The notes under the pieces are model-generated. The model was given only the letters and a program-made list of their open reading frames with translations. It was not told the DNA's origin and made no database searches. A program made the position numbers and the translations under genes. This document shows positions 39,872 to 43,011 of a stretch of 64,000 bases of DNA, one piece after another; position 1 is the first letter of the stretch, and each line of letters starts with the position of its first letter. The stretch comes from Halomonas sp. (GTDB taxonomy: Bacteria > Pseudomonadota > Gammaproteobacteria > Pseudomonadales > Halomonadaceae), in NCBI RefSeq assembly GCF_017515565.1, contig NZ_JAFWFN010000004.1, forward strand, positions 1 to 64,000. Reading direction: 5' to 3'.

Positions 39872-39900
39872 TTTAATCCTCACCAGCCCCCGGGGATTTA

Positions 39901-39937
39901 TTAGGCGGCGTCGGTATAGGTTACCGACGCCGCCTAA
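39901..39937. terminator. Bidirectional terminator between ubiT and hmp
   Basis: Two perfect 16-base arms, TTAGGCGGCGTCGGTA and its complement, enclose a five-base loop. It sits 29 bases after the ubiT stop and ends two bases before the hmp stop codon, serving both convergent genes. Confidence 0.85.
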
Positions 39938-39939
39938 TA

Positions 39940-41112
39940 TCAAGCGACGTCGAGTGGTCGCGAGGGGCCGAAGTGCTCAAAGTGTCGGCGGTCTGCATCA
40001 ATGCCCAGCTCAGCCAAGGCACTGTTGATAGCCGTCATAAACCCCTGGGGGCCGACAAAATAGCAGCGTGCCATAGGGCCAGGCAGGTAGTCGGCTAATA
40101 AGGAGCGGTCGATACGCCCAATGTGATCGGCACGGTTTCCTTGTTCATGAATGCTGACCGCCTGAAAACGCGCGGGATAGGCAGCCTTTAATGTTTCAAG
40201 CTCGTCATTGAAAGCGTGATGATCGGCATCTAAGGCGGCGTGTAAATAGACGACCTGGCGCCCAAGCGACAAAGCATGTCGCGCTATGGGAAGAAGTGGT
40301 GTTTGGCCAACACCCCCGCTGGCAAGCAGCAGCGGTTCGTCACCCTCTACCAGCGTCAGGTCGCCTGCTGGTGGAAGCAGCTCTATGTTATCGCCTGGTT
40401 GCAGAACATCGTGGAAATAACGGCTGACTTGCCCCTCTGCTTCGCGTTTGATTGAGATGCGATAGCTCCGACCATTGGGGGTATCCGATAGGCTGTAGTG
40501 CCGGTAGACCAGTTCGCCATTAATGGTTAAGCGTACGCCGATATATTGGCCAGGCTCATGGTCAGCCACCGTGTTGCCATCCTCGGGTTCCAGAATAAAA
40601 GAGCGAATTAAGACACTCTCCTGCTGGGTGCTGGCAATCTTGAAGCGGCGAGTGCCCCGCCAACCTCCTGGGCGCTGCTCAAACTCGCGGTAGCGCTGGT
40701 CTTCAAGGTCGATGAGGAGTGCGGCAAGCTCGTTATACAGCGCCCCCCATGCATCGGCGATTTCCGGCGTTACGGCATCGCCAAGTACATCGCCAATCGC
40801 CGCTAGCAAGCACTCCCCTACAATGGGGTACTGCTCAGGCAGTATCCCCAAAGAGACATGCTTGCTGACCACAACCGCCAGTGTGGCGCGTGCTTGGGCA
40901 GGATTGCTGCGCAGTTTTACATAGGCCAATACGGCGCTGGCCAGAGCGCGAGGCTGCCCACCGCTTTGCTGATGCGCCTCATTGAAGAGTGGTTTTACGT
41001 CGGGATAGCGGGTAAACATCAACGGATAAAAGTGCTCAGTAATGGCGTCCAGGTGTTCAGCAACGACGGGCGCCGTAGCGTCGATCAGTGTTTCTTGTTC
41101 ATGTGTTAGCAC
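39940..41112 (-). CDS. hmp: Flavohemoprotein, nitric oxide dioxygenase
   Basis: A 390-residue protein with an N-terminal globin domain (about 1-140; the proximal His is in SKHVSLGI near residue 85), an FAD-binding domain (RHYSLSD near 205) and an NAD-binding domain (ASGGVGQTPLLPI near 265, ending FGP). It turns NO and O2 into nitrate in the cytosol. The start is GTG; the sequence MLTHEQETLIDATAPVVAEH is the family N-terminus. Expression is very likely under NsrR, since an almost perfect operator lies just upstream. Confidence 0.95.
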   Translation of the reverse strand: MLTHEQETLIDATAPVVAEHLDAITEHFYPLMFTRYPDVKPLFNEAHQQSGGQPRALASAVLAYVKLRSNPAQARATLAVVVSKHVSLGILPEQYPIVGECLLAAIGDVLGDAVTPEIADAWGALYNELAALLIDLEDQRYREFEQRPGGWRGTRRFKIASTQQESVLIRSFILEPEDGNTVADHEPGQYIGVRLTINGELVYRHYSLSDTPNGRSYRISIKREAEGQVSRYFHDVLQPGDNIELLPPAGDLTLVEGDEPLLLASGGVGQTPLLPIARHALSLGRQVVYLHAALDADHHAFNDELETLKAAYPARFQAVSIHEQGNRADHIGRIDRSLLADYLPGPMARCYFVGPQGFMTAINSALAELGIDADRRHFEHFGPSRPLDVA

Positions 41113-41120
41113 GGATAATA

Positions 41121-41167
41121 CCTCAGGGCTTTAAGATGGATTTTTAATACATCTTAAAGCCCTGAGG
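41121..41167 (-). promoter_or_regulatory. 47-bp palindrome covering the hmp ribosome-binding site
   Basis: Two perfect 18-base arms, CCTCAGGGCTTTAAGATG and its exact complement, enclose an 11-base centre. On the hmp strand the last four bases of the second arm are GAGG, the likely Shine-Dalgarno sequence, nine bases before the GTG. The NsrR operator occupies the middle. If transcribed, RNA would form a long hairpin that hides the ribosome-binding site. Confidence 0.8.
41133..41155. promoter_or_regulatory. NsrR operator for hmp
   Basis: The halves AAGATGGATTT and TAATACATCTT around one central T give the 11-1-11 layout of the NsrR consensus (AAGATGCATTT, N, AAATGCATCTT). Six outer bases of each half are identical to consensus. 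Together with the nearby nsrR gene this is strong evidence for NO-controlled hmp expression. Confidence 0.88.
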
Positions 41168-41260
41168 GCATAAATACCAACCATGAAGCGGGTTTTATTA
41201 GTAAAAGGGTCTTTGACGTGGCGACCGCTATTAGGGGTGGCTAGCGCACTTAAAAACTAT

Positions 41261-41283
41261 AAGATGTATTTTTGATACTTGTC
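41261..41283. promoter_or_regulatory. Second, weaker NsrR-like site before nnrS
   Basis: AAGATGTATTT is a perfect NsrR half-site, followed by T and the imperfect half TGATACTTGTC. It lies 64 bases before the nnrS start, in the intergenic region shared with hmp, and may control nnrS. Confidence 0.6.
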
Positions 41284-41346
41284 ATGGTTTTCGATGGTTG
41301 CGAGGCGCACAATGATATTTCCAAGTAAATTAGTCGGAATTATGCC

Positions 41347-42558
41347 ATGCCAACGATCACCTCATCCCAGCCTGCTTCTACGCTTACGCATCTGCCATTG
41401 ATGCGCCTAGCTTTTAGGCCTTTCTTCCTACTGGCTGCGCTGTTCAGCGTGGCATCGATGTTGGTGTGGTTGGCGTTCTGGCACGGCAATATCCTTCTGC
41501 GCCCCTATGGCGGCCTAATTTTTTGGCATCAGCATGAAATGTTGTTCGGCTTTGCAGCGGCGGTGGTCGCGGGCTTTTTACTAACGGCGGTGCGCAACTG
41601 GACTGGATTGCCGAGCTTGAGCGGCGGGCCGCTGCTGGCGCTAGTAGGATTATGGCTGTTAGGTCGGCTGCTAATGGCCTTTCCCATGGCATTGCCGGGC
41701 TGGCTAGTATTGATGGTCGACCTTGCGTTTCTGCCGGTGGTTGCCATTGTTATGGCGAAACTGGTGATCACCGCGAAGCGGTGGCGCAATTTGATCTTCA
41801 TCCCTGTGCTGGCGCTGTTTGCGATGGCTAATCTGGCGATGCACTTGGGGTTGATGAATGGCGATGCCGAGTTGATTCGCCAAGCTGCCTACTTAGCTGT
41901 GCTATTGATCACGCTTTTGATGACCGTCGTAGGCGGGCGGGTGATTGCTATGTTTACCGCCAACCGTTTAGGACGGCCCAAGCCAGCGCCTATTCCCGTA
42001 CTTGAAGGTGTTACGCTGGCGAGTACGGCGGGCGTCGTATTATTGCAGTTGGCCATCATGCTGGGCGTTGCCATTCCTACGGTGTTAATGGGTGGGGCGA
42101 TGCTCTTAGCAGCATTGGCCAACACACTTCGCATGGCACGCTGGGGTGGACTGCAAAGCTGGCGCGAACCATTGCTATGGGGGTTGCACTGCAGTTATGC
42201 CTTCATCCCCTTAGGCCTCGTCATGTGGGTATTAGCGCTCATGGGGCTAATGCGCACTGAGCTTGCAATTCACGCCCTGAGTATCGGGGGGATGGGCGTC
42301 ATGATGTTAGCGATGATGGCTCGGGTGTCACTAGGCCATACCGGTCGGCCAATACGCACCTTGCCGGGTATCGGCGTGGCGCTGGGACTCATGTTAATAG
42401 CCGCCGTCATGCGTTCACCCGTCTTAGCGCTATTTCCCCAGATCACCCACTGGACCTACACGCTAAGTATCATCTTCTGGTGCTTGGCTTACGTCATATT
42501 TCTCGTGCACTACACGTTGCCATTGATGCAGGCACGCGTCGACGGGCAGCAGGGCTAG
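41347..42558 (+). CDS. nnrS: NnrS family haem-copper membrane protein
   Basis: A 403-residue protein with about 12 membrane helices, belonging to the NnrS family. The conserved HQHEMLFGFA motif (near residue 60) and later histidines in the helices (for example GHTGRP near 335) are metal and haem ligands in this family. NnrS helps cells resist nitrosative stress. It is divergent from hmp, has an NsrR-like half-site upstream, and its stop is seven bases from the convergent nsrR stop. Confidence 0.9.
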   Translation: MPTITSSQPASTLTHLPLMRLAFRPFFLLAALFSVASMLVWLAFWHGNILLRPYGGLIFWHQHEMLFGFAAAVVAGFLLTAVRNWTGLPSLSGGPLLALVGLWLLGRLLMAFPMALPGWLVLMVDLAFLPVVAIVMAKLVITAKRWRNLIFIPVLALFAMANLAMHLGLMNGDAELIRQAAYLAVLLITLLMTVVGGRVIAMFTANRLGRPKPAPIPVLEGVTLASTAGVVLLQLAIMLGVAIPTVLMGGAMLLAALANTLRMARWGGLQSWREPLLWGLHCSYAFIPLGLVMWVLALMGLMRTELAIHALSIGGMGVMMLAMMARVSLGHTGRPIRTLPGIGVALGLMLIAAVMRSPVLALFPQITHWTYTLSIIFWCLAYVIFLVHYTLPLMQARVDGQQG

Positions 42559-42564
42559 AGAGTA

Positions 42565-43011
42565 CTAAGCGCTGATGGTAGGAATGCGCATAAGTTGCGC
42601 CAGCTGGGGTTGTTGATTGCCCAGCAAGTCAGCCAGTGTGTAGTGGTCCAGTTCGTCTAGAAATGCGGACAACGCATCCCTAAGAATCGATTGAAGTCGA
42701 CAGGCCGGCGTAATGATGCAGGCGTTATCGCTATGAAAGCACTCCACTAACGCCATGTCATGCTCCATCTCCCGCACCAGCTCGCCTAACCCAATGGTGG
42801 CGGGGTCACGGGTAAGGAGTAAGCCGCCATTCTTGCCGCGAATGGCGGTAACGTATTGTTTCTGGCTAAGTTCCTGAACGATTTTCATCAAATGATTGCG
42901 CGATATATTAAAGGTCTCGGCAATCTCATGAATGGTAGAGCGCTCCTCTCCCTTGGCAGCAAGAAAGATCAATACGCGTATTGAATAATCAGTGAATCGG
43001 GTGAGGTGCAT
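42565..43011 (-). CDS. nsrR: NO-sensing Rrf2-family repressor NsrR
   Basis: A 148-residue Rrf2 regulator with an N-terminal winged helix (MHLTRFTDYSIRVLIFLA) and three cysteines at 91, 98 and 104 that fit the iron-sulfur cluster ligands of NsrR (E. coli: 91, 96, 102). NO damages the cluster and releases the repressor from DNA. The neighbouring hmp and nnrS promoters carry matching operators. It converges on nnrS. Confidence 0.93.
   Translation of the reverse strand: MHLTRFTDYSIRVLIFLAAKGEERSTIHEIAETFNISRNHLMKIVQELSQKQYVTAIRGKNGGLLLTRDPATIGLGELVREMEHDMALVECFHSDNACIITPACRLQSILRDALSAFLDELDHYTLADLLGNQQPQLAQLMRIPTISA

Follow-up and report, generated by a model that had tools for sequence, protein, structure and literature searches.

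Does a palindrome that joins a repressor operator to a ribosome-binding site control its gene once, on the DNA, or a second time in the mRNA? The region upstream of hmp in a Halomonas sp. genome raises this question (assembly GCF_017515565.1, contig NZ_JAFWFN010000004.1, positions 1 to 64,000; we refer to this whole 64,000-nt stretch as the window). Here, the preliminary description had reported an 18-base perfect inverted repeat with an NsrR operator at its centre and the Shine-Dalgarno (SD) sequence GAGG at the end of its second arm, and had proposed that hmp could be controlled both by NO-sensitive repression and, if transcription begins upstream of the repeat, by an RNA hairpin. The arrangement itself was confirmed by the sequence.

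The palindrome, its operator, and its genes

On the minus strand, positions 41167–41121 consist of CCTCAGGGCTTTAAGATG (41167–41150), an 11-nt loop (41149–41139), and CATCTTAAAGCCCTGAGG (41138–41121), where the two arms are exactly complementary over 18 bp and over 22 nt with one mismatch. The features of the locus, with the arms taken from the sequence and from an inverted-repeat search, are as follows.

41150–41167, minus strand: left (5′) arm of the perfect 18-bp inverted repeat
41121–41138, minus strand: right (3′) arm of the same repeat
41121–41124, minus strand: SD sequence GAGG, the final four bases of the right arm
41133–41155, minus strand: NsrR-type 11-1-11 operator AAGATGTATTAAAAATCCATCTT
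39940–41112, minus strand: hmp, flavohaemoprotein (NO dioxygenase), GTG start
41261–41283, minus strand: weaker NsrR-like site near nnrS
41347–42558, plus strand: nnrS, divergent from hmp (Pfam PF05940, 341.9 bits)
42565–43011, minus strand: nsrR-like gene for an Rrf2 regulator (PF02082, 123.6 bits)

The 18-bp palindrome at 41121–41167 is exact and far beyond chance. When the window was simulated six times with a first-order Markov model (loops of 3 to 30), the longest perfect arm was 11 bp in three, and the other three had no arm of at least 11 bp. A search of the genome for the 18-base arm with up to three mismatches returned a single match elsewhere, at three mismatches, and we rejected the palindrome as a repeated element because the arm is not repeated in the genome. 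The RNA of positions 41060–41200 (minus strand) folded at −54 kcal/mol (z = −7.0). A terminator search of 40900–41400 found none, and an Rfam search matched five microRNA models, every one below its gathering score. The long perfect outer arms are unusual, and a role for them in control is only proposed. The sole other perfect 18-bp inverted repeat in the window (39899–39939, loop of 5) lies directly after the hmp stop codon and resembles a terminator stem, such that hmp is bracketed by two 18-bp palindromes.

The operator agrees with 20 of the 22 informative positions of AAGATGYATTTNAAATRCATCTT, the 11-1-11 palindrome consensus of NsrR operators, and a genome scan with the operator pattern (up to three mismatches) returned 41133–41155 as the only site. 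Its neighbourhood points the same way. The hmp product carries globin, FAD-binding, and NAD-binding domains and scored above the cut-off of its curated family (NCBIfam NF009805, 436.3 bits versus a cut-off of 432), while the best NCBIfam model for the Rrf2 protein was NF008240 (NsrR), at 151.6 bits and below the cut-off of 182. Among the records found with Hmp, the nearest named relatives are of Halomonas and Vreelandella. The hmp/nnrS/NsrR-like Rrf2 neighbourhood, together with the presence of the operator at a score of at least 17/22 in 71 retained upstream regions (window included), supports the earlier assignment of an NsrR-type operator to hmp. The weaker site near nnrS, which scores 17/22 in L018, is retained in most aligned relatives even where the gap to the hmp promoter shrank by ~75 bp. 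The converging nnrS and nsrR-like genes are separated by 6 nt (42559–42564), which leaves little space for a terminator between them.

According to PMC10783083, the NsrR operator consists of 11-bp inverted duplicates of AAGATGTATTT, and NsrR operators of hmp are described for E. coli, Salmonella, and Vibrio among the gamma-proteobacteria in that paper and in PMC1274295. The locus studied here resembles these in having a 23-bp palindrome of 11-bp inverted duplicates near the hmp start and a known or predicted NsrR gene. It differs in that 18-bp perfect arms reach the SD sequence and in that hmp and nnrS diverge with one site each.

For the comparison of relatives, we collected 105 upstream regions, 81 of which were distinct when compared over 160 nt, and retained the 71 mentioned above, dropping duplicates and regions without an operator of at least 17/22. 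A further 61 regions yielded 40 whose operator scored 16 or more, bringing the total for shuffle tests to 104 distinct regions. Clade A comprises 28 of the 71, including the window; in its members, the operator precedes the start codon by 19, 20, or 24 nt and identity over the tested N-terminal part is 81% or higher, and L017 and L151 were excluded by hand. The sequences compared are not independent, and near relatives were counted more than once. Four hmp orthologues that lack an NsrR-type operator (L155, L159, L190, and L199) have upstream sequences resembling TGGCACG-N4-TTGCT, presumably of sigma-54 type, and some of them carry TGTCGCA or a similar sequence, a pattern reminiscent of NorR-type control of hmp.

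A candidate promoter overlapping the palindrome

Whether an hmp transcript can form the hairpin depends on where it starts, and the sequence in and upstream of the loop offers the following candidate elements.

41175–41180, minus strand: candidate −35 hexamer TTGGTA (four of six positions), 18-nt spacer
41151–41156, minus strand: candidate −10 hexamer TAAGAT (four of six positions), overlapping the operator
41143–41145, minus strand: transcription start region predicted from the −10 hexamer, inside the operator
41174–41179, minus strand: TGGTAT, a possible partner of GTGCTA (41107–41112) at the base of a long RNA hairpin

TAAGAT occupies the same place in clades A and C. In clade A, it is preceded at 17 to 18 nt by TTGGYA or a weaker variant, and in most of the clade a GGYTRGYATTT-like segment recurs at this distance. 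The four clade C genomes have TTGAGC 17 nt before TAAGAT, and venusta-type genomes have poorer −35 sequences (CTAGCA, CTGGCG). The SD-pairing CGCCTTA part of the left arm is identical in all four clade C genomes, while the rest of the spacer varies. Group-averaged −10-like matches peaked at offsets −3, −1, +4, and +6, each of which falls at the operator or within its left half, and the corresponding −35 profile reached 2.04 at −24 and 1.84 at −25, and again 2.04 at −43, so that the candidate position was not singled out. A promoter scan did not list the TTGGTA/TAAGAT pair and listed instead an upstream site at 41285–41256 (10/12); chance alone would give 0.8 such sites in the scanned region. 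We also observed TTGACGCAGCTCATG, TTGTCGC, or CTGCGACA, each shared by the members of one clade, at about 29 to 45 nt from the operator on its upstream side (for example, in L129, L137, L024, and L020).

The segment that contains the candidate −35 hexamer can be read in a second way, as the partner of the start-codon region in RNA. Across the 28 clade A sequences, 94.0% of the cells in the TGGTAT/GTGCTA helix were paired, and all six pairs varied on one side only. L014 and L018 keep TTG while the start-codon pairing drops to 4/6 and 2/6, which favours the promoter reading of the TTG segment. Against that reading stand the weakness of the hexamers, their absence from the promoter scan, the −35 profile, the poorer −35 sequences of venusta-type genomes, and the constant CGCCTTA of clade C. 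The weak hexamers suggest a start inside the palindrome, an outcome that the preliminary description had held to speak against the hairpin. No Halomonas start-site study covering hmp was among the literature matches listed, and the passages seen of PMC2884951 and PMC5320621 include none on the hmp start site.

A start at this place has a parallel in V. vulnificus, where, according to PMC8175989, the NsrR footprint on hmpA runs from −2 to +18 and transcription begins 57 bp before the start codon; this footprint would leave nearly nothing upstream of the operator in the hmpA transcript there.

We tentatively favour, at a little short of an even chance, a reading in which hmp has an NsrR-repressed promoter that starts inside the operator, with lineage-specific arms of mutational origin. 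The promoter would be of sigma-70 type, and NsrR bound to the 23-bp operator would block RNA polymerase by covering the −10 hexamer together with the start point. Damage to the NsrR iron-sulphur cluster by NO, with release of the regulator, is known for NsrR elsewhere, and we infer the same route of derepression here. The left arm would then serve as the spacer between the −35 and −10 hexamers. It would remain untranscribed from this promoter, and the normal hmp mRNA, starting in the loop with a leader of ~30 nt, would be unable to form the hairpin. The same reading takes the perfect outer arms to be a lineage-specific lengthening of the operator palindrome, which most likely arose when an imperfect inverted repeat had its arms copied from one another by template switching. 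The SD-side pair excess at offsets 8 and 9, the mild G-U excess over all 71 sequences, the SD occlusion, and the surplus of sense-only cases described below count against this reading.

Outer arms among relatives

We defined the outer arms as the 12 positions beyond the operator in ungapped register. Watson-Crick pairing at 10 or more of the 12 positions was found in 3 of the 28 clade A sequences, namely, the window and L004 with 12 Watson-Crick pairs each and L008 with 10 plus one G-U pair. When G-U pairs were counted, 5 of the 28 reached at least 11 of 12, with L011 and L038 doing so through seven Watson-Crick and four G-U pairs each; the remaining 23 sequences had fewer pairs. In the hmp tree, L084 is sister to the window and L004 (support 98), and its pairing of GGCATTA with TAATGCC needs a one-base shift; in L005 and L086, the mid-arm is largely unpaired. 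Support in this tree is low (27 to 76 at several nodes) within the venusta and titanicae groups. The arms of L004 and the window differ by the replacement of one A-T pair by T-A. The preliminary description had set against its hairpin a loss of the outer arms among close relatives; such loss holds for most of the 28 sequences and not for L004 and L008.

The outer arms were also to be compared between species for covariation, and the aligned outer helix showed none: 55.7% of cells were paired in the 28 sequences versus 56.5% when the 3′ letters were shuffled, and 52.4% and 57.3% when the partner was slid by one and two columns, respectively. The consensus fold of aligned clade A reached only −1.98 kcal/mol. 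We therefore rejected clade A covariation as support for the hairpin, with the aligned outer helix equal to shuffles, although offsets 3, 8, and 9 lie above shuffles when the register is left ungapped. At offset 3 beyond the operator, clade A has T-A in 6, A-T in 10, and G-C in 5 sequences, i.e., 21 of 28 versus 8.1 expected, with zero G-U. At offsets 8 and 9, which lie at the SD sequence, Watson-Crick pairs numbered 10 versus 6.2 and 21 versus 13.8 expected, while offsets 4 to 7 and 10 to 12 in the same register showed no excess over expectation. GAGG itself is kept in 26 of the 28 aligned sequences (exceptions, L084 and L101), and at hmp it lies 8 nt from the GTG (41112–41110).

Over offsets 3 to 12, clade A had 122 Watson-Crick pairs compared to 103.1 in swaps. 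An asymmetry of G-U over A-C pairs, considered as an RNA signature, was rejected for clade A (G-U, 49 versus 46.9; A-C, 37 versus 36.7); across all 71 sequences, G-U was in mild excess (98 versus 82.7; A-C, 92 versus 86.9). Upon swapping left flanks within clade A, own flanks fitted better than those of relatives, and alike on both strands (z = −3.94 sense and −4.76 antisense), and without the three Watson-Crick cases (L001, L004, and L008) the values fell to −1.80 sense and −1.92 antisense in an 18-member nonredundant set. We rejected the swap test as proof of selection because its excess shrinks once these three sequences are removed. The comparison of sense with antisense folding was likewise set aside as a strand signature, being alike over clade A, with a sense excess per sequence in the regions with the operator near the SD sequence (see below).

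We read the covariation pattern as favouring a DNA-level cause, such as copying between arms, over selection on RNA, with the caveat that the sequences are not independent. Covariation at offset 3 without G-U pairs and the A-T to T-A exchange between the window and L004 suit such copying, and the SD-side excess at offsets 8 and 9 would fit either cause. Template switching (quasipalindrome mutation) can, according to PMC8794818, create and maintain perfect inverted repeats and yield compensatory changes. The loss and gain of arms and the one compensatory change at hmp are compatible with this process, as a fit of pattern only.

A different DNA-level explanation is that the outer arms form part of a larger binding site for NsrR or for a second symmetrical regulator. 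Such a site would account for the dyad symmetry, for the strong symmetry that we found at offsets 1 to 3 beyond the 23-mer in the 71 sequences, and for sense and antisense being alike in clade A. However, arm sequences vary between relatives, which argues against a fixed site, and the V. vulnificus footprint spans ~20 bp according to PMC8175989. We hold this explanation to be very unlikely.

Possible occlusion of the Shine-Dalgarno sequence

What the hairpin would do if it were transcribed can be expressed as the cost of opening the SD sequence. With both arms transcribed, this cost was 11.6 kcal/mol in the window versus 3.1 kcal/mol for a transcript starting in the operator, and it was 11.5, 10.1, 13.0, and 9.4 kcal/mol with both arms in L004, L008, L013, and L029, respectively. 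The two-level control of the preliminary description is thus physically possible, in that an RNA with both arms buries the SD sequence. As normal hmp control it fared less well: most of the relatives examined lack the full arms and the start probably lies inside the palindrome, such that an RNA switch is probably not the normal mode. In its strict form, the main hmp mRNA would start upstream of the palindrome and the hairpin would block translation as a second layer besides NsrR. The very stable fold, the high opening cost, the conserved segment that could be the partner of the start-codon region, and the promoter-like site upstream would all suit this scheme. Yet, most of the 28 sequences lack full outer arms, including L084 and L005; the aligned helix does not covary; hexamers at promoter spacing overlap the arm; and no means of opening an 18-bp stem in response to NO was found. 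We regard such a switch as very unlikely, and less likely than the NsrR-repressed promoter starting inside the operator. Literature on NsrR with an SD hairpin was absent from the matches listed.

We then asked how widely SD occlusion occurs. In a first test, the opening cost exceeded that of shuffled left flanks (P < 0.05) in 12 of 32 sequences. A second test took the 46 of 104 distinct regions whose upstream gene had been inspected, one of which lacked an SD sequence, and here 14 of 45 passed at P < 0.05 and 31 did not. Those that passed were L001, L004, L008, L013, L101, L016, L097, L038, L133, L136, L108, L111, L147, and L143. They carry several unrelated arm sequences, although clade C contributes three of them and several of the rest come as pairs of close relatives. 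Split by upstream gene, occlusion was found in 5 of 9 codirectional and 9 of 36 divergent cases, with the orientation for L135, L143, L129, and L139 resting on mechanical open reading frames (ORFs). Gene orientation as the cause was rejected, since this difference is confounded by clade.

Folding tests that kept offsets 1 to 3 showed an excess in the 53 SD-near regions (11 sense and 5 antisense passes) and none in the 51 SD-far regions (5 of each). A control stretch upstream passed in 5 of 53 and 10 of 51, respectively, so that the baseline of the test exceeds 5%. Sense-only cases outnumbered antisense-only cases by 8 to 2 in the SD-near set. Shuffling the whole left flank yielded more passes (P < 0.05; on the sense and antisense strands, respectively, 24 and 23 in the 53 SD-near regions and 13 and 10 in the 51 SD-far regions), and we discarded these counts as inflated because the symmetric offsets 1 to 3 are broken too. 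By that shuffle, L030 had P = 0.007; upstream of its hmp, another long imperfect palindrome (fold, −39.6 kcal/mol) surrounds the operator, with its main arms ahead of the SD sequence. Recurrent SD occlusion is possible.

Such occlusion might belong to a hairpin that acts against read-through, as in phage T4 I-TevI and related genes, where, according to PMC2988022, a late promoter is placed so that its own transcripts are too short for the hairpin that sequesters the ribosome-binding site. At hmp, a regulated promoter inside the 5′ arm would yield a freely translated transcript, while transcripts arriving from upstream would fold and hide the SD sequence and the start codon; these might come from nsrR read-through antisense to nnrS or from the promoter-like site at 41285–41256. 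The 14 of 45 passing sequences with several unrelated arms are consistent with this scheme, as are the higher fraction with codirectional upstream genes, the position of nsrR directly upstream of and codirectional with hmp in clade C, and a codirectional 151–amino acid ORF upstream in L008. L011 and L038 with their 11 of 12 outer positions (counting G-U) also agree, and the more distant relative L029 pairs CTTCAGG with CCTGAGG across an asymmetric loop. The 10/12 promoter-like site and the T4 precedent add to these. Set against them, the sequences are not independent, with three of the 14 from clade C and several others near-relative pairs; 31 of 45 fail, and only regions with an inspected upstream gene entered; the aligned outer helix lacks covariation; the control passes of the fold test put its baseline above 5%; and chance alone predicts 0.8 promoter-like sites over the scanned region. 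We consider an anti-read-through hairpin unlikely, with a real chance of being right. The proposed likeness to I-TevI is that the candidate promoter, TTGGTA-18-TAAGAT with its weak hexamers, would leave the 5′ arm out of the transcript. Unlike in I-TevI, a repressor operator would here form part of the stem, and hairpin-bearing transcripts are only proposed.

If the operator reading alone holds, the locus adds one further NsrR-controlled hmp to the known ones. More speculatively, the operator may double as a fold-back translation block: NsrR would guard the internal promoter, the palindrome in read-through RNA would hide both the SD sequence and the GTG, and Hmp would be made only from NO-induced transcripts starting inside, an arrangement that, on this view, evolved on several occasions within the family, from arm sequences unrelated to one another. 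We regard this proposal as rather doubtful. If true, it would mean that a chromosomal repressor site has taken on a second use, guarding against translation of read-through RNA, by a logic already known from phage T4.
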